DNA from: an uncultured Clostridia bacterium
Lineage (GTDB): Bacteria > Bacillota > Clostridia > TANB77 > CAG-508
Length of the DNA: 64,000 nt
Assembly: GCA_944393505.1 (NCBI GenBank)
Contig: CALYAK010000004.1
Coordinates: 1 to 64,000 of the forward strand
Direction of reading: 5' to 3'
In this document: piece after piece, positions 21,482 through 62,114 of the stretch
Layout: the number at the start of each line of letters is the position of its first letter
Position numbering within the stretch: the first letter of the stretch is position 1
The notes under the pieces: generated by a model
Seen by the model: only the letters and a program-made list of their open reading frames with translations
What the model was told of the DNA's origin: nothing
The model's database searches: none
Position numbers and translations under genes: made by a program

Positions 21482-22970
21482 ATGAAAAAGTGTAACCAAC
21501 TACTCATTACGATTATTTTCGTAATATTCATTGGAATCTATGCTTTTACCATTCTTTCGAATATCGGATCTTTACTAGGTCTTATGATTCTCTTACCAAT
21601 CCTTTTTGGGATTGGTAAGTTGATCCATCATCGGGAAAACAAAATGGAAGATACCGAATTGGGTTCATCAATATTTTCCAGTTTTGCTATTTACATTCGC
21701 TTTTTTGATTCGCTTTATTGTTTTACACATTTTAAAAATTGAACCATATAGTGATTATGCCACTTTATTCAATGCAGCTTGGAATTTAAAAGATGGAATT
21801 AATGTGATGGCAGATTCGCCCTATTTTAACATGTGGGGATTTCAAACTGGATATGTTCTTTATCAGACTGTACTTTTAAAGATCTTCCAATCCGAAATGG
21901 CACTTCATGTCTTCGATTGTTTTTATACATCAGCTAGTTGTACAATGATTTATTTAATGGGAAAAGATTTATGGAAATCGGATCAAAAGTTACCAAGTTT
22001 CCTTTATGCAGTTTACCTATTTGCCATTGCGTATACAGGTGTTTTAAGCAATCAACATCTTTATGTATTCCTCGTTTTAATTGCCATTTGGTTATGGTTA
22101 AGAGAAAGAGAGAAAAGTAATACGATTAAGATTAGTTTAATCGTAGGTGTTTTACTTGCAATTGCCAATATCATAAGACCAGAAGTTATTTTGGTATTAA
22201 GTGCGATGATTCTTTATGAGTTCTTAAAAATCGAAACAAAAGAAGATTGGAAGAAATGGATAAAAAAGATTTTAATCCTCTTGGGTACCTTTCTATTCCT
22301 TACACAAACAGCAAGTTTCTTAGTTCAAAAAACAGGATTAAATCCATCTGGACTAGAGAATAAAAACATATTATGGAAATTTGTTTGTGGGTCTGATTAC
22401 GAAGTTGGTGGAGGATATAGTTTAAGAGGAGAACCGATTTCCAATGATCAAGAAGCGGAAAAACAGTTTATTCTAGATAACTATACAAGCTTAACACCGA
22501 GCGAATGGCTGATCTTTTTCAAAAAGAAAATTAATAATTTCTGGACCAATGATTCTTATGGATGGGTTTCTGCAACAGTAGGAGAAAAAAAAGAGATCAT
22601 TTCTGGAATTTCTATGTCAAGTGAAACCATTATTCAAATTGTAAAAATCGTGGATGGAATGGGATATCTCGTTATTTTCTTTTTGGCATTGGTTTCAATG
22701 GCAAAGGCAAGAAAAGAAAATGATGTACACTCTCCCAAAAACTTTTTTCTAATCTTGTTATTACTTCATTTCCTAGTCTATTTAGTGATCGAAACGCAGA
22801 CGCGATATGCATATCTTGCTCGTATTCTTCTATTCATTTTAGCAATGGATGGTATGAAGACATGGAAAGAAGATCCAATTCCTCAAAAAATGAAGAACTG
22901 GCTGAAAGAAAAATGTGAAAATATCGAAAAAAAGAGAGAAAAGGCGAAGCTTGACGGAAAAAAGGTTTGA
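21482..22970 (+). pseudogene. Membrane glycosyltransferase (GT39/PMT-like), single-base frameshift
   Basis: An N-terminal piece (21482 to about 21682) encodes two membrane helices and then runs out of frame. The main piece continues in the next frame to 22970 with the FAFLIRFIVLHI helix, EPYSDYATLFNAAWNLKDG (acidic first loop), and about eight more helices. The acidic loop after helix 1 and the overall layout resemble lipid-phosphate-sugar-dependent GT39/GT-C transferases. Removing one T from the TTTT run at 21682-21685 joins the two pieces. It is the last gene of the glycan operon; no terminator follows before the next promoter. Confidence 0.7.
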
Positions 22971-22977
22971 ATTTTCG

Positions 22978-23006
22978 TTGTTTTAGAATAGGAAGTGTGA
23001 TACAAT
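22978..23006 (+). promoter_or_regulatory. Sigma-A promoter of the single-domain orphan gene
   Basis: TTGTTT (22978-22983), a 17-base spacer and TACAAT (23001-23006), starting only 8 bases after the preceding stop codon. It implies a leader of about 95 bases. Confidence 0.7.
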
Positions 23007-23106
23007 GAAAGATGCAAACAAGGAAAACCAAGCGTAGCAAAATCCCTCAGTTTGCAGAAGAAAATAGGCCTTGTGAGATAAATAATTGTTTAGGAGGGAA
23101 AATTCT

Positions 23107-23298
23107 ATGACCGCAAAAGAGCTTCGGATTGGAGACCATGTAACGACAAAGGATCCGAATGATGATACTGTAATGACTGGCAATGTGGTCAGTTTGTGCC
23201 AGTATCCGGTAAACGGAATTACAATCAAGTTGGATGGAGGAGGAACCCTCTTCATCGCCTGGAAAGGAATCCAGAACTGGAAGTTTAAGCGAATCTAA
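23107..23298 (+). CDS. Orphan 63-residue protein, single copy of a GD-x-V / PW domain
   Basis: I do not recognise this protein. It begins MTAKELRIGDHVTTKD, continues NGITIKLDGGGTLFIAW and ends in Lys/Arg. This is one copy of the domain found three times in the next gene: an L-x-IGD-x-V opening, a central NGxTI strand and an F-I-x-W strand, suggesting a small beta barrel of SH3/KOW type. The start follows a strong AGGAGGG site. Codons such as CTC, GCC, ATC, CGG and CAG are common and unlike the A/T-ending codons of neighbouring genes. It has its own promoter and terminator. Confidence 0.7.
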   Translation: MTAKELRIGDHVTTKDPNDDTVMTGNVVSLCQYPVNGITIKLDGGGTLFIAWKGIQNWKFKRI

Positions 23299-23304
23299 GA
23301 GACG

Positions 23305-23331
23305 AGCTCCTCCCTTTAGGGAGGAGCTTTC
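23305..23331 (+). terminator. Terminator of the single-domain orphan gene
   Basis: A 10-bp stem (23305-23314 with 23319-23328) has a 4-base loop. The T tail is short (TTT). Confidence 0.65.
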
Positions 23332-23347
23332 AATCGCAATCGAAAAT

Positions 23348-23376
23348 TTGAAAAAAATTGAAAAATATGGTAAAAT
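23348..23376 (+). promoter_or_regulatory. Sigma-A promoter of the three-domain orphan gene
   Basis: TTGAAA (23348-23353), a 17-base spacer and TAAAAT (23371-23376). The leader of about 85 bases contains a small hairpin near 23418-23440 (GTTTAC / GTAAAC). Confidence 0.7.
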
Positions 23377-23465
23377 ATAGAGTGCAAATAAGGTCAAGGC
23401 CTTATCGTATAACTCCACATGTTTACTAAAATAGGTAAACAAATTCAAAAACAGGAGGTATCTCT

Positions 23466-24032
23466 ATGACAGCACATGACCTAATGTTAGACGATCGGAT
23501 CGAATTTTTAGATCCATACAATGGAAGGAGGATAAGAGGACGCGTTTTCAAGATCGAAAAAGGACGTGAGAACGGAGTAACCATTCAATCGGATCGAGGA
23601 GAAAAGATCTTTGTCCCTTGGGACAGTTGCTATCAATTCCGGCTGCTTGTAAGGGCAATTCATCTGCAGGTAGGCGACCGAGTAAAATTCAGTAATCCAT
23701 ATAATGGTGTTCGAATGAAAGGATGTGTCTCCAAAATCCAGGAGGATCCTCTCGATGGAGTAACAATCCAAAGAGACTACAATGGGATCGTATTCATTCC
23801 CTGGACGGAGGACATTTCTGCTTATCACTTTCATCGCTTGCTAAGAGCAAAGGAACTAGGGATCGGCAACAAGGTAGAAGTTTCCACACAAAAGGATGAC
23901 ATCATTTTCAACGGCAAGGTTTGCGGTTTTAGCAATTCGCGTGAACACGGTGTCTTACTGCGGAACGATTGGATAGGAAAAGTCTTCATTCCAGAGTTAG
24001 AGTTTTCCAATTGGGATTTTTGTTTGCTGTAA
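23466..24032 (+). CDS. Orphan protein with three tandem copies of an unnamed ~60-residue domain
   Basis: The 188-residue product is three repeats. Unit 1 (1-60) has LMLDDRIEFLDPYNG, NGVTIQSDRGEKIFVPW. Unit 2 (61-122) has LQVGDRVKFSNPYNG, DGVTIQRDYNGIVFIPW. Unit 3 (123-188) has LGIGNKVEVSTQKDD, HGVLLRNDWIGKVFIPE. The shared plan is L-x-x-GD-x-V-x-F, PYNG, a basic turn, GVTIQ-x-D and (I/V)-F-(I/V)-P-W. This resembles compact beta domains used for nucleic-acid or protein binding, but I cannot assign a function. The ribosome site is AGGAGG. Codon use differs sharply from neighbours. The gene is monocistronic, and the one-domain paralogue lies just upstream. Confidence 0.75.
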   Translation: MTAHDLMLDDRIEFLDPYNGRRIRGRVFKIEKGRENGVTIQSDRGEKIFVPWDSCYQFRLLVRAIHLQVGDRVKFSNPYNGVRMKGCVSKIQEDPLDGVTIQRDYNGIVFIPWTEDISAYHFHRLLRAKELGIGNKVEVSTQKDDIIFNGKVCGFSNSREHGVLLRNDWIGKVFIPELEFSNWDFCLL

Positions 24033-24041
24033 AAGAGGAGG

Positions 24042-24070
24042 ATCCCTCACCGTAAGGTGGGGGATTTTCT
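24042..24070 (+). terminator. Terminator of the three-domain orphan gene
   Basis: A 9-bp GC-rich stem (24042-24050 with 24057-24065, one G-T pair) is followed by TTTTCTT. Confidence 0.75.
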
Positions 24071-24107
24071 TGTGTTATAGGAAATTTCTCAAACAAGTTT
24101 TTAAAAG

Positions 24108-24142
24108 GATAAAAAAATTGAGGCATAACAAATATGCCTCAA
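24108..24142 (-). terminator. Terminator of the zinc-ribbon passenger gene
   Basis: On the minus strand a 9-bp stem (24142-24134 with 24126-24118) is followed by seven Ts. Confidence 0.8.
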
Positions 24143-24161
24143 AATATAACTTTTTTGAAGT

Positions 24162-24561: not shown

Positions 24562-24591
24562 ATTATACACTAGGGGGACTAGTAGTTGCAA
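24562..24591 (-). promoter_or_regulatory. Promoter with a dyad operator for the zinc-ribbon gene
   Basis: On the minus strand: TTGCAA (24591-24586), an 18-base spacer and TATAAT (24567-24562). The spacer holds an inverted repeat ACTAG/CTAGT, a possible operator. Confidence 0.6.
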
Positions 24592-25708
24592 TAGAATATT
24601 TTTTAGGAATCACTAATTTAAAGAATATCATAAAATTACCACAAGAACATTTAGTAGGATCATAACCAAAAGACAACTCAATAGACAGTCTCCATTTTCT
24701 AAGTTGTTTTCTAAATTCAATTTGTGTTTGAGAAAGCATTTTAAATATTTTTGAAGAATGTTTATGCTTTTTAGCGTAAAGACCATAATATCTAACAAGT
24801 TTAAAATGTTTATCAGGTATATGAATAATAAGTTTTTTTATGAAATCAAATACATGAACTTTTTCTTCAACTCTTTGATCATCTTCATGCCTTTGATAAT
24901 AAAAAGTAACGTATTCACCATCATAATCTAAAATACGAGATTGAGCCATAGCAGGTCTGCTAGTATATCTAACGATATAATCAACAGCAATTTTAATAGA
25001 AGATATATCATCTGGTTTAGCATAAACATAGAAACCATTATCATAGGATGAATATAAAAAATTTTTTAATTTATTAAAAGTATACAATTTAGAAGGAGGT
25101 AAGTTTTTATACAAATAGGATAATAATAATTTTTGCCAACGTGAGCGTAAAGCTTTAAATGAAATATGAGGTACTTTTCGAAAAATTTCAATGTTACCAG
25201 CGCCACCTTCTGAACAAAGCATATGGATATGAGGATTCCATTTTAAATCTCTACCGAAAGTATGAAGAGTACACATGATTCCAGGAGTAAAATTTTGAGA
25301 TTTATTCATCTCATGAAACCAAGACAAAATAGTTTCAGAAGCTGATTCAAATAAGCCATTTAATAAATTTCTATCTTCTAAAAAATAGATACGAAGTTGT
25401 TTAGGAATGGTAAAAACAATATGTCTATGTTTGCAACGAATAATTTTTTTAGAAATATTAAAAGCTCTATCTTGAGCGTATTTAACACCACAAGTATTGC
25501 AAAATCTGGATTTACAACGAAAAGGAACATTTACAAATTTATTACAATGTTCACAGTAATATAAAGCATAACCAAGTTCAGGATTACCACAATTGATCAT
25601 ATGTTGTACTTCTTCGAATACAACAGGTCTAATATTTAAATTAGGATTTTCTAAAATAAATTTATCCCAATTATCAATAAAAATTTGTTTTATTGTGTAT
25701 TTTGACAT
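24563..25708 (-). CDS. IS91-family transposase (HUH)
   Basis: The 381-residue protein has an N-terminal zinc-binding region (CEHCNKFVNVPFRCKSRFC followed by TCG). The HUH-type motif is NPHIHML in the middle, and the C-terminal segment IVRYTSRPAMAQSRI contains the catalytic Tyr region. IS91-type elements transpose as single strands by a rolling-circle-like route, without target duplications. The start was placed at the second in-frame ATG because GGTGAT precedes it at suitable spacing. The element lies between the orphan cassettes and wecB. Confidence 0.88.
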   Translation of the reverse strand: MSKYTIKQIFIDNWDKFILENPNLNIRPVVFEEVQHMINCGNPELGYALYYCEHCNKFVNVPFRCKSRFCNTCGVKYAQDRAFNISKKIIRCKHRHIVFTIPKQLRIYFLEDRNLLNGLFESASETILSWFHEMNKSQNFTPGIMCTLHTFGRDLKWNPHIHMLCSEGGAGNIEIFRKVPHISFKALRSRWQKLLLSYLYKNLPPSKLYTFNKLKNFLYSSYDNGFYVYAKPDDISSIKIAVDYIVRYTSRPAMAQSRILDYDGEYVTFYYQRHEDDQRVEEKVHVFDFIKKLIIHIPDKHFKLVRYYGLYAKKHKHSSKIFKMLSQTQIEFRKQLRKWRLSIELSFGYDPTKCSCGNFMIFFKLVIPKKYSIATTSPPSV

Positions 25709-25757
25709 ATTAATCACCATTTAAAATATATCAGATATTTACTAAAAATTAAAATAA

Positions 25758-31071: not shown

Positions 31072-31145
<74 letters not shown>

Positions 31146-31368: not shown

Positions 31369-32556
31369 TCATTTTTCTTTTTCGTGTGTATTTTTCTCTT
31401 GTTCTATACGATTGAACATATTATTTGATTCATAATAATTATTAACTTTAATCAATTCCTCATTTTTAAATCTACTTAATATAGAAGTATAAGTATTAAG
31501 TGTGACAGCTATGTCTTTATGTCCCATAAGTTTTTGAAGAGTTACTGGTTGCATGCCGGCTTCGATACATCTTGTTCCAAAAGTATGCCTCAAGCTATGA
31601 GTAGTTATATCATAAATCCTAAAATTTTGACTTAGCATTCTTTTTAAAACCGTATTAACTGTTCGAGGATCGGACATAGAGCCATATTTACCCAAGAATA
31701 GTAATTGATCTTTATTATTTTTGGCAATTTCTTTTTGTTCTGCTACTTCTCCTAAAATATTATTAGGAATGGGAACGGTTCGAATACCTGCAACTGTTTT
31801 AGGAATATGCTTCATAATTACTCGTTCATTTTCATCTCTACTGAGAGTTTTATGAATATGGATGGCTCGATTTTTTAAGTCGATATCATCATATTGCAAG
31901 GCAAGGGCTTCGCCAATTCTTAATCCCATATATAATTGAATAAGGAATACGTTTTTATAAGGTTCTTCTGCAGTTGTTTTGTTGATAAGATATTCGGTAA
32001 AAGCTTGTTGCTCATCGATTTCCATAGCACGAATAATTTTATCCGGTTTATTGCTTTTTGGTTTATATACATCAATCATAGGATTAACTGTAATATATCC
32101 TTTTTCTTTTGCATAATTAAATGCTTGAGTAAATTGCATCATATATTTTTGCATATAGGAATTACTATAATGTTTTAAGGAGTCGAAGTAAGCCTGCAAT
32201 TCATCTGCTGTAATTTCAGAGATTTCTTTTGTACCGACAGAGGCTTGTTCGATCGTTTCAATTATTTTATTATTCTTTCCGTATTGTTGGGGAGAGACTT
32301 TATTAAATCGAAGTTTTCGATCATTAATTGCTTTCATCAATTCATTGATTGGAATACCATTGTGTTTGACATAGATACTATTATTCTTTTTATGTTCTTG
32401 CTCGATCAAAAATTGATTAGCTTCTTTTTCAGTAGCAAAGCTTTTTTTACGATGTATTTCTTTTCCAGTTTTTGGATCAATCGTTGTATAGGGAGCAAGC
32501 CAATTATCTCTTGTTTTATTATAGTAAGCTTTAGTAGATTCACGTTTTCTAGCCAT
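31369..32556 (-). CDS. int: Tyrosine recombinase/integrase of a tRNA-Gly element
   Basis: The 395-residue protein has an N-terminal arm-binding domain (YNKTRDNWLAPYTTID), a SAM-like core-binding domain (about 75-175), and a C-terminal catalytic domain. Catalytic residues visible are Arg in GLRIGEAL, His-x-x-Arg in HSLRHTFGTR, His in GHKDIAV and Tyr in LNTYTSI. Tn916-type integrases share this plan. It points toward the tRNA-Gly 3' end. The excisionase gene is 16 bases upstream in the same transcript. Confidence 0.93.
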   Translation of the reverse strand: MARKRESTKAYYNKTRDNWLAPYTTIDPKTGKEIHRKKSFATEKEANQFLIEQEHKKNNSIYVKHNGIPINELMKAINDRKLRFNKVSPQQYGKNNKIIETIEQASVGTKEISEITADELQAYFDSLKHYSNSYMQKYMMQFTQAFNYAKEKGYITVNPMIDVYKPKSNKPDKIIRAMEIDEQQAFTEYLINKTTAEEPYKNVFLIQLYMGLRIGEALALQYDDIDLKNRAIHIHKTLSRDENERVIMKHIPKTVAGIRTVPIPNNILGEVAEQKEIAKNNKDQLLFLGKYGSMSDPRTVNTVLKRMLSQNFRIYDITTHSLRHTFGTRCIEAGMQPVTLQKLMGHKDIAVTLNTYTSILSRFKNEELIKVNNYYESNNMFNRIEQEKNTHEKEK

Positions 32557-40869: not shown

Positions 40870-40898
40870 TTGTAAAATTATGTAAAAAGTGATATAAT
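40870..40898 (+). promoter_or_regulatory. Sigma-A promoter of the 58-residue membrane protein gene
   Basis: TTGTAA (40870-40875), a 17-base spacer and TATAAT (40893-40898). Confidence 0.75.
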
Positions 40899-40980: not shown

Positions 40981-41157
40981 ATGCTAAAGAGAATTTTGTG
41001 GACAGTAACTTACCCCGTGAGTCTGTTTCTCGTTTTATATCTGCAGCCAACGCTGCTGGGAGCACATCCGTCGATTCGGAATACTCTTTCCATCTGCATC
41101 TTTGCAGCAGTCGGAGTATTTATCGCGTATGGAGCGGGAAAGAAGGACACCGATTAA
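40981..41157 (+). CDS. Small two-helix membrane protein, orphan cassette
   Basis: The 58-residue product starts MLKRILWTVTYPVSLFLVLY, has two membrane helices (about 5-25 and 35-52), and ends GAGKKDTD. A perfect AGGAGG lies 7 bases before the ATG. A consensus promoter and a leader of about 75 bases precede it, and a strong terminator follows. GC-rich codons (CTG, CTC, ATC, CCG, GCG) are frequent and unlike the neighbours. No family is recognised. It shares gene layout with the orphans at 23.1, 23.5 and 61.6 kb. Confidence 0.65.
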   Translation: MLKRILWTVTYPVSLFLVLYLQPTLLGAHPSIRNTLSICIFAAVGVFIAYGAGKKDTD

Positions 41158-41181: not shown

Positions 41182-41212
41182 GACCAGTGCAATGTAGTTG
41201 TACTGGTCTTTT
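41182..41212 (+). terminator. Terminator of the 58-residue protein gene
   Basis: An 11-bp stem (41182-41192 with 41198-41208, one G-T pair) is followed by TTTTCC. Confidence 0.8.
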
Positions 41213-41249: not shown

Positions 41250-41278
41250 TTGTAAAATAAAAAAGTTTAAGGTATAAT
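41250..41278 (+). promoter_or_regulatory. Sigma-A promoter of the riboswitch-ATPase unit
   Basis: TTGTAA (41250-41255), a 17-base spacer and TATAAT (41273-41278). Confidence 0.75.
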
Positions 41279-41299
41279 GGCAAAGAAGCATAAAACTAC

Positions 41300-41400
41300 T
41301 TCAGATTAAAAGGGAGTAGCTCATAAACTACTAGTCAACAACCCAGCTATTAAAGCATGGCTAGTAACCAACTTTTCTGGTGAGCAAGACTTTTAGAAAA
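41300..41400 (+). promoter_or_regulatory. yybP-ykoY (manganese) riboswitch
   Basis: The conserved blocks are AAAGGGAGTAGC (41309-41320), the central region with GTCAACAACCC (41333-41343), and GGTGAGCAAGACTTTT (41379-41394), matching the paired loops of the yybP-ykoY Mn2+ riboswitch. It lies in the leader of a P-type cation ATPase, a standard partner of this class. Confidence 0.8.
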
Positions 41401-41448
41401 AAATACAAAGAGAGGCTTCTTCTTTTTTTTCATGAAAAGTCTTTTTTT
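41387..41448 (+). terminator. Riboswitch expression-platform terminator
   Basis: AGACTTTT (41387-41394), the 3' side of riboswitch stem P1, can instead pair with AAAAGTCT (41435-41442) before seven Ts. Ligand binding would hold P1 and prevent termination, giving an ON switch. Confidence 0.65.
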
Positions 41449-47989: not shown

Positions 47990-49042
47990 TTACCATTTAG
48001 AATAGCCAGGATTTACGGCTTCTAATACCTTTTTGAGATATTCGTATGCTTTTTCATCGCCCCAAGCATGAATGCCGCGTTTACCATCTTCTTCCCATTT
48101 GGTAACATCTTCTGCATGGAAAAGTGTGTCCATATCAAATGGCTTGTAATTTGCTTGCCACTCAATTGATATAACACGCTTTCTCCAGCCCATTATGATA
48201 TCACCATCAATCGTATGGAATAAAAACCAGGGAATATAGGAGTCGTCCCCCTGCCAATAACCGTTTGGTAACAGTTCAAAGGTATAATCGGTGCTTTTAT
48301 AGATGAGATCCATCATTCTTCTAGTGAATTTGTCGACCTCCGTAAGCTTTCGATAGTTACGCCAACAACTGTTGTGATAGAATTTTCCGTCAATGAATAC
48401 GCACGGGTTATTTCTTACATCATCAATTGTAAGCTTTTGGCCACAGCAAGGGCAAACTGAGTCAGGAGCAGGAATCGCATATCCGTCAAATGTCAAAGTA
48501 AAACCTGTGGAATGATTCCTTTTAAAAGTTTCAAAATCTTCAACATTGGCGGTTGATACAAAACTGTCCTTTTGGCTTGGAATAACAGACAAAACCTGAC
48601 CAAATTGATCAAGCAAAAAACAACCGAAAAGCATAAACTCATTCAGCCGTACACCTTTATAGGCTTCATGAAACATTCTTCTGTTCTGTAACATTTCGTT
48701 CAAATCAGCAAGAGACAGAAGCGACTTTTCAATGCCTTGGAGTGTATCGAAAGTAGGTATTGCTATATCAAAAACTCTCTCTTCATAAGTGATTTCTGCT
48801 TCCAGTGGAACATACTCGCCACCATTCTGCCTTTTGAGTTCTTCTTCCTTAAATCGATAGAGCATTTCCTGCTCTTTTGTAAAATTGGGATGACCATAGC
48901 AGTTAAATGATGACGGAATCAGTGGCTCGCCGAGCAAGGTTACCTTTACGGTTTCAGGAATAGCTAATTTGTCCAACGTAATATGCCCAATTAAACCGCC
49001 TCCTACATTCCAACCTTCCATCCGTTTCTTTTCAATGTTCAT
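47990..49042 (-). CDS. Uncharacterised protein with CPCC zinc motif
   Basis: The 350-residue protein is not recognised. It has a central cluster SVCPCCGQKLTIDD followed by a later Cys/His pair (FYHNSCW), which could bind zinc. The rest looks like alternating strands and helices without a signal peptide or membrane helix. Codons are more GC-rich than neighbours (GCC, CTG, GGC), suggesting transfer. It is a single-gene unit with its own terminator. The start ATG has an AGGAGG-like site. Confidence 0.65.
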   Translation of the reverse strand: MNIEKKRMEGWNVGGGLIGHITLDKLAIPETVKVTLLGEPLIPSSFNCYGHPNFTKEQEMLYRFKEEELKRQNGGEYVPLEAEITYEERVFDIAIPTFDTLQGIEKSLLSLADLNEMLQNRRMFHEAYKGVRLNEFMLFGCFLLDQFGQVLSVIPSQKDSFVSTANVEDFETFKRNHSTGFTLTFDGYAIPAPDSVCPCCGQKLTIDDVRNNPCVFIDGKFYHNSCWRNYRKLTEVDKFTRRMMDLIYKSTDYTFELLPNGYWQGDDSYIPWFLFHTIDGDIIMGWRKRVISIEWQANYKPFDMDTLFHAEDVTKWEEDGKRGIHAWGDEKAYEYLKKVLEAVNPGYSKW

Positions 49043-49231
49043 GATAAAACCTCCTAATCGAAATTTAATTATTGTCGGAGGCTAATGCCTCCGAAATACC
49101 GGACGGCATTGAAAAATTTACCATCAGCACCAATTATAACACAAACGTTTACATAATTCAAACTGATTCTGAATTATATACTGATGAACCATTTGGAATT
49201 GACAAAATAACAGATTTTGGAGGGGAGAAAA

Positions 49232-61470: not shown

Positions 61471-61499
61471 TTGCTATTTTACATAAAATGTAATATAAT
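61471..61499 (+). promoter_or_regulatory. Sigma-A promoter of the 158-residue orphan gene
   Basis: TTGCTA (61471-61476), a 17-base spacer and TATAAT (61494-61499). The leader is about 65 bases. Confidence 0.75.
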
Positions 61500-61571: not shown

Positions 61572-62048
61572 ATGGAAATCCAAACGAAAAGATGGTTGGA
61601 ACGAGTACTTCCGGTGATCGAAGAATGTGAGGGAGTTTGCATTGAAGCATTAGAAAAGTGCAAAACCCTAAACATTGATGGCAAAGAGGAAGAATGCTAT
61701 TCTGCGGTTTTAACGAAAGAGGATATTGCAGAAGAGGTTTTTCTGTTCGTTTGCCAAGCCGAGAATCGGATCATTCTCTTCCGCAACTTCGTGCTAGAAG
61801 AAGACTGTGATCAATATCCGGAAGATGTGGAATTGATCCAAGGCGAAGGCGCGGATATCATGACTTGGAATGAAACAAAGAAATGGATTCTCTTTGACCA
61901 GGTCGTGGTAGCGAAGCAGTATCGGTTTGATGAGTCGGCACGATTGGTGGAAGACCAGACAGGCCTACGAAATGACCGAACTGGAACTGCTTTCAAGGGA
62001 AAACTGGGAAAGTATTTCATCCGAGTTGGAAACCAGTACATTGATTAA
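61572..62048 (+). CDS. Orphan 158-residue protein, cassette-like
   Basis: The product is not recognised. It is acidic and Cys-containing (EECEGVCIEALEKCKTL), with a beta-rich middle (EEVFLFVCQAENRIILFRNFV) and a C-terminal AFKGKLGKYFIRVGNQYID. No membrane helix. Codon use (CTC, ATC, GCC, CGG, GTC) is clearly more GC-rich than that of the genes on either side. It has a consensus promoter, an AGGGG ribosome site and a strong terminator, the same plan as the orphans at 23.1, 23.5 and 41.0 kb. Confidence 0.65.
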   Translation: MEIQTKRWLERVLPVIEECEGVCIEALEKCKTLNIDGKEEECYSAVLTKEDIAEEVFLFVCQAENRIILFRNFVLEEDCDQYPEDVELIQGEGADIMTWNETKKWILFDQVVVAKQYRFDESARLVEDQTGLRNDRTGTAFKGKLGKYFIRVGNQYID

Positions 62049-62079: not shown

Positions 62080-62114
62080 CCTCGCCACATTCAAAGTGGC
62101 GAGGTTTCTTTTTG
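62080..62114 (+). terminator. Terminator of the 158-residue orphan gene
   Basis: A 9-bp GC-rich stem (62080-62088 with 62096-62104) is followed by TTTCTTTTT. Confidence 0.9.

Follow-up and report, generated by a model that had tools for sequence, protein, structure and literature searches.

Atypical genes in the window

The window (the whole stretch of DNA analysed, 64,000 nucleotides, positions 1–64000 of contig 4) has a G+C content of 32% and is part of an assembly of 1.56 Mb in 37 contigs. It carries five genes whose codon usage differs strongly from that of the genome around them (Table 1). Four of these, encoding the proteins P0001–P0004, had been singled out in a preliminary description of the sequence, and all four ORFs are present where it placed them and translate cleanly. 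The fifth had been overlooked.

Table 1. Positions of the atypical genes of the window and of their predicted signals
Feature	Position	Strand	Remarks
Promoter-like site, gene 1	22978..23006	+	TTGTTT - 17 - TACAAT; top site by our promoter score; not listed by the stricter scan
Gene 1 (P0001, 63 aa)	23107..23298	+	One predicted SH3/Tudor-like domain; codon outlier
Hairpin 3' of gene 1	23305..23328	+	Almost without T tail; terminator score 0
Promoter-like site, gene 2	23348..23376	+	TTGAAA - 17 - TAAAAT; found by promoter score and stricter scan
Leader, gene 2	23384..23465	+	Two hairpins, z -3.45 against shuffles
Gene 2 (P0002, 188 aa)	23466..24032	+	Three copies of the gene 1 domain; codon outlier
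Terminator-like hairpin 3' of gene 2	24042..24065	+	Sequence reading and terminator score
Promoter-like site, gene 3	40870..40898	+	TTGTAA - 17 - TATAAT
Gene 3 (P0003, 58 aa)	40981..41157	+	Hydrophobic; 410 bases behind a tRNA-Gly gene
Terminator-like hairpin 3' of gene 3	41182..41208	+	Sequence reading and terminator score
Fifth gene (350 aa)	47990..49042	-	CPCCG motif; paralogue L019:18273-18956; relatives in eight other genomes
Promoter-like site, fifth gene	49133..49161	-	TTGAAT - 17 - TATAAT; leader with strong hairpins, z -4.22
Promoter-like site, gene 4	61471..61499	+	TTGCTA - 17 - TATAAT
Gene 4 (P0004, 158 aa)	61572..62048	+	One remote relative; codon outlier
Terminator-like hairpin 3' of gene 4	62080..62104	+	Sequence reading and terminator score

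Genes 1 and 2 are paralogues, a point missed in the preliminary description. The copies in P0002 are 30–33% identical to P0001, and a fifth copy of the domain forms a separate gene of the same class elsewhere in the genome (L025:18375-18548; L-numbers such as L016 and L025 label sampled stretches). A domain model built from 5 sequences (pLDDT 86) has the shape of an SH3/Tudor-like barrel. Its best match in the PDB is weak (Foldseek E 0.03), and the tudor domain of 7de9 aligns with it at Z 7.9 and rmsd 2.2 over 58 residues, Z values of this size being common. The predicted fold may resemble the Tudor/SH3-like small barrels in shape, with no relation shown in sequence, and the proteins may bind protein or nucleic acid. 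A model of the whole of P0002 (pLDDT 36) was of no use. Close behind the two genes lies an IS91-type transposase gene (Y2_Tnp, Zn_Tnp_IS91; 24563-25720, minus strand).

P0003 is probably membrane-bound. Beyond gene 3, ahead of a Ca-ATPase gene, is a leader-like sequence (AAAAGGGAGTAGC...) that recurs by eye in several genera (41260-41440, L085, L086, L087, L089) and has no credible match in Rfam. Two further features of the window were recorded. A phage-type integrase gene (31369-32556, minus strand) lies near a tRNA-Gly gene (31072-31145) and is followed by small genes, a possible integrated element, and a glycine-rich reading frame (409-1453) is apparently broken between 409-1209 and 959-1453, possibly by a frameshift or an assembly error.

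A scattered class across the genome

A further 400 kb of the same genome (G000) was read, giving with the window a sample of 464 kb of the 1.56 Mb. Including the five window genes, the wider class comprises 18 genes at 16 sites. Two pairs lie side by side and all other members are solitary; runs of several adjacent atypical genes, as in a cluster or genomic island, were not found. By simple proportion from the 464 kb, the whole genome would hold about 60 such genes. The candidate pool numbered 71, many of the remainder being without a ribosome site, overlapping tRNA genes or antisense. An initial list of 17 ORFs lost the doubtful L017:11903-12037 (44 aa) and gained L016:11641-11976 and the L025 gene, while a 571-aa outlier with a weak start (L021:4140-5855) is excluded from the 18. 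The plus-strand orientation pointed out for the four genes is correct for them but does not extend to the class (11 plus, 7 minus). In the promoter, terminator, start-codon GC profile, tRNA-distance, strand and GC1/GC2 counts the L025 gene is taken one base short; z-scores and CGG counts use its right frame.

Organization of the transcription units

The four genes are laid out as any singly transcribed gene would be. Each had been credited with its own sigma-A promoter with an exact 17-base spacer, and the best promoter of all four does have this spacing, as do 16 of the 18 class promoters, but the score, which is crude and of sigma-A type, itself rewards a spacer of 17, and the plan is that of any one-gene unit. 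With a mean promoter score of 19.5, the 18 class genes stand above 126 host genes preceded by a gap of at least 110 bases (17.9) and above shuffled upstream regions (16.2); 23% of those host genes reach the class median. The leaders of genes 1–4 are estimated at 93, 82, 75 and 65 nt, in line with the 65–95 bases first proposed. Two of 10 leaders fold well beyond their shuffles, and no common motif was seen among the 10.

A predicted private terminator can be assigned to genes 2, 3 and 4, but not to gene 1, which is also the exception in the class: terminator-like hairpins follow 17 of the 18 genes, vs 72% of 161 host genes. That the polysaccharide operon ahead of genes 1 and 2 lacks a terminator of its own, as had been proposed, is faintly suggested at most, the stricter scanner listing no plus-strand terminator at all in 22900-24150. 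Repeats or shared edges were not found at the unit boundaries, the units gave no match in Rfam, and there is neither a recombinase tied to them nor a flanking site; “cassette” is therefore a description of layout, not of mechanism. Four of the 18 genes (two at one site) are at most 1 kb away from a tRNA gene, vs 6% of the sample, numbers too small to claim a link.

Codon usage and base composition

The GC-rich, foreign codon usage ascribed to the four ORFs is borne out, with GC3s of 0.43–0.49 against a host mean of 0.18. Their z-scores range from -4.5 to -8.3 relative to the other 59 genes of the window and from -5.5 to -9.9 relative to 256 host genes, a reference from which ORFs with GC3 of at least 0.33 are excluded. 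Within the window the fifth gene alone is more extreme. Against the same reference the 18 class genes span -5.5 to -22.4, and among 307 other ORFs of at least 100 aa with a ribosome site, a set without the GC3 exclusion, just one falls below -4.5 (at -4.7). The codon table of the class was trained on 12 of its genes and is circular for those, a problem that does not affect the z-scores against host genes. Such a composition, atypical for the host genome, is one expected of horizontally acquired ORFans.

The GC content rises sharply at the start codon, from 0.29 in the 100 bases upstream of class genes (host genes 0.26–0.28) to a GC3 of 0.39 in codons 2–11 and 0.45 further in; for other genomes, the rows of this profile contain related genes and are not independent of one another. 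GC is also raised at the first and second codon positions (0.489 and 0.372, vs 0.442 and 0.306 in host genes), which fits foreign genes better than selection on synonymous codons alone. GC-rich outliers occur too in stretches of a sister species of the same genus (G001), of a relative from another genus (G044) and of some other genomes, and are absent from several. Two of those in G044 (L075:13671-14951 and L075:18784-19548) look by eye like metabolic genes, one for a peptidase and one for a SAICAR-synthase-like protein, so not all outliers are orphans.

The contrast is greatest for CGG, which accounts for 37 of the 157 Arg codons of the class and for 19 of the 3,873 of the 256 host genes, or 118 vs 1.9 per 10,000 codons. 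Among the tRNA genes found, 35 in G000 and 35 in G044 (34 distinct sequences), none reads CGG, and the sole Arg anticodons are ACG, CCU and UCU; the set of G000 lacks Ala, Ile and Leu-UAA and is incomplete, and Ile is the sole amino acid missing from that of G044. A non-Arg meaning of CGG was rejected. CGG columns align mainly with Arg and Lys, including several fully conserved Arg columns, and the codon is therefore taken to be read as Arg. No claim is made for conserved CGG positions (12 columns with CGG in at least two genomes vs 7.8 expected, P 0.04), which are driven by one young pair (L011), nor for CGG enrichment near the starts of the 18 genes, a post hoc comparison with corrected P of 0.079 at 10 codons, 0.046 at 20 and 0.074 at 30. 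Shulgina and Eddy 2021 (PMC8629427) describe low-GC Firmicutes with extremely few CGG codons and without a tRNA that decodes them under the standard rules. The host genes resemble these, CGG being very rare and no standard-rule tRNA having been found, but differ from the cases given there in that one gene class has CGG as its commonest Arg codon.

Relatives and possible donors

The absence of a known family noted for the four genes holds: none has a Pfam match above cut-off, and NCBIfam, PHROGs and PADLOC gave nothing at 0.01. Among 10 class proteins, PHROGs produced one match. P0002 and P0003 are confined to their own genome (1 of 95) and absent from the 94 others searched, and so lack recognisable relatives among these. 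P0004 occurs in 2 of 95, its own and G044, where the remote relative (23% identity) is GC-rich and apparently has its own promoter and terminator; some other class genes also have relatives. P0001 was searched through the domain common with P0002, which occurs in 4 of 391 class-level genomes, three of these being short partial matches inside long frames.

No donor or vehicle of class genes was found in the collections searched. P0002 has no relative in the genome contigs, viral contigs, phages or plasmids; the viral collection likewise gave no match for P0004 or the CPCCG pair. For a HIT-like class gene (see below) the search gave only the sister genome among genome contigs, and weak matches in five plasmids. 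Residues 258–349 of the fifth window protein resemble hypothetical proteins encoded by very large phages (Erwinia, Xanthomonas, Caulobacter, uncultured), with 33–45% identity over about 80–107 residues, which hints that some members may have a phage source.

Occupied and empty junctions

Comparison with G001 shows a patchy presence. At the deacetylase/tRNA-Leu junction, G001 is longer by about 530 bases, which include a class gene of 107 aa, where G000 is empty, a presence/absence difference at a single junction as expected of an acquired ORFan. An HD-type gene is accompanied by an SH3-like class gene in G000 and by a 59-aa hydrophobic class gene in G001. Class genes at a YhbY/peptidase-type junction and beside an OB-type gene are found in G000 alone of the two. 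The genes for P0004, behind a NUDIX gene, and P0003, before the Ca-ATPase gene, are likewise limited to G000; G001 has the one flank named, and its outer neighbours differ. Three class genes are found at an identical junction in the two species, each time with GC-rich copies: the HIT-like gene next to a nucleotide pyrophosphatase gene, an L024 gene, and an L016 gene behind RimO, where G001 carries one more class gene. Also in G001 is a class gene (L066:4046-5023, minus strand; GC3 0.65) whose product has a Maf domain preceded by an N-terminal region of a different type.

The L011 gene has a relative in G045, of another genus, with 71–76% identity, a 4-fold site difference of 0.34 and different neighbours. 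Host genes of G000 and G001 differ at 0.47–0.73 of 4-fold sites in seven of eight cases (0.38 in the eighth), close to saturation. The L011 gene is thus most simply explained by a transfer between genera. The suggestion that the genes are mobile or recently acquired is supported as to mobility, by the patchy presence, the occupied and empty junction and this one apparent move, but “recent” is unfit for the class as a whole, since three members hold the same junction in two species whose synonymous sites are near saturation.

We favour, with moderate confidence, the view that the class consists of dispersed ORFan genes, acquired horizontally, singly and at different times, from a pool of higher GC content.

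Age of the class and possible drift of its composition

At least some members are old. The HIT-like pair differs at 0.61 of 4-fold sites, about as far as host genes do, and has kept a GC of 0.61/0.65 at synonymous sites; its GC3 is 0.58 in G000 and 0.66 in G001, the neighbouring pyrophosphatase gene having 0.17 and 0.28. Drift towards host composition at the host clock is rejected for this pair (p 4.6e-8), and with a free clock the drift model fits but requires an ancestral GC of 0.97. Outside these two genomes the GC3 of the HIT-like gene is 0.28–0.66, mostly beside a host-like pyrophosphatase gene, and that of the CPCCG relatives is 0.13–0.52, a spread that looks like a mix of ages. In several genera of the family, the gene for a large HIT/CwfJ-like protein (L021:1365-3821; L138-L143, L147) is GC-rich and sits next to a host-like gene of the nucleotide pyrophosphatase type.

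The rejection of host-clock amelioration, for a gene that is GC-rich in both species beside a host-like neighbour, favours another explanation, in which selection, whatever the origin of the genes, keeps their codons GC-rich since it is useful for decoding to be slow or to depend on conditions, and the genes hence do not drift to host composition. That genes common to both species still contain CGG, for which the tRNA genes found include no reader, points the same way. We regard this as unlikely, though worth keeping in mind: for the other two syntenic pairs, which have few sites, drift from a GC-rich ancestor is not rejected (p 0.1–0.3), some genomes contain host-like relatives of class genes (GC3 of 0.15 and 0.13 for CPCCG in G027 and G068, and 0.13 for a deoxyribosyltransferase-like gene in G063), and the rise in GC extends to the first and second codon positions.

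It is rather improbable that the class represents native, fast-evolving lineage genes with relatives beyond recognition. Class proteins do change faster than their neighbours between G000 and G001 (identity 50% for the HIT-like protein vs 67% for the pyrophosphatase, and 38% for the L016 protein vs 72% for RimO), but rapid protein change gives no GC-rich codons in an AT-rich genome, nor would it account for the empty junction or the apparent transfer between genera.

More doubtful still is a codon-gated class, that is, dozens of scattered accessory genes written in codons, CGG foremost, that are purged from the core genes and unmatched by any tRNA of the cell, with low default translation that would rise only once an incoming phage or plasmid, say, supplied a CGG-reading tRNA, the codon acting as the switch. 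Least credible is the highly tuned, highly expressed class once offered as an option, for although promoter and terminator scores exceed the host average, the class codons are not the host optimum but those the host avoids, CGG above all, and ribosomal protein S2, the sole such gene from a pattern search of the sample, has a GC3 of 0.14.

Comparison with known systems and implications

Under horizontal acquisition, one-gene units of promoter, leader, ribosome site, ORF and terminator would sit in the gaps between unrelated resident genes, supplied at different times by a pool of higher GC in which CGG, CTG, CTC, CCC and GGC are in free use. Members would arrive, be lost frequently, replace one another at junctions and spread between related genera, with long retention of some. 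As each unit has its own start and stop signals, its expression is expected at any point of insertion, with adjacent genes left unaffected. We infer an outside source, expression, and movement as a whole unit.

Integron gene cassettes, which are small, mostly orphan and foreign in codon usage, consist of a promoterless ORF and an attC site in an array. The units described here are similar in the first three respects, but have their own promoters and are scattered, with no array. Phage “moron” genes are likewise single genes of foreign composition with their own promoter and terminator (the latter for 17 of 18 genes here), but no prophage was seen around the units, whose neighbours look chromosomal on reading. 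Atypical ORFans are tied to clusters from integrative elements by Cortez et al. 2009 (PMC2718499). The lack of relatives, atypical composition and patchy presence are shared with those ORFans, and the difference lies in the clustering reported there as against 18 genes at 16 separate sites. Viral relatives are reported for only 2.8% of ORFans by Yin and Fischer (PMC1559721).

A literature search found no description of such a scattered, GC-rich, CGG-using class, a result that does not prove that none exists. Orphan genes of foreign origin are usually presented as AT-rich islands or as cargo of prophages. The small AT-rich genome studied here would carry many scattered GC-rich foreign orphans, some of them kept past the split of two species, in a cell with no recognised tRNA for a codon that is frequent in them. 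It would offer a natural test of two things: the speed at which foreign genes adopt host composition, and the effect of a codon that no tRNA matches, which might block such genes, slow them or regulate them.
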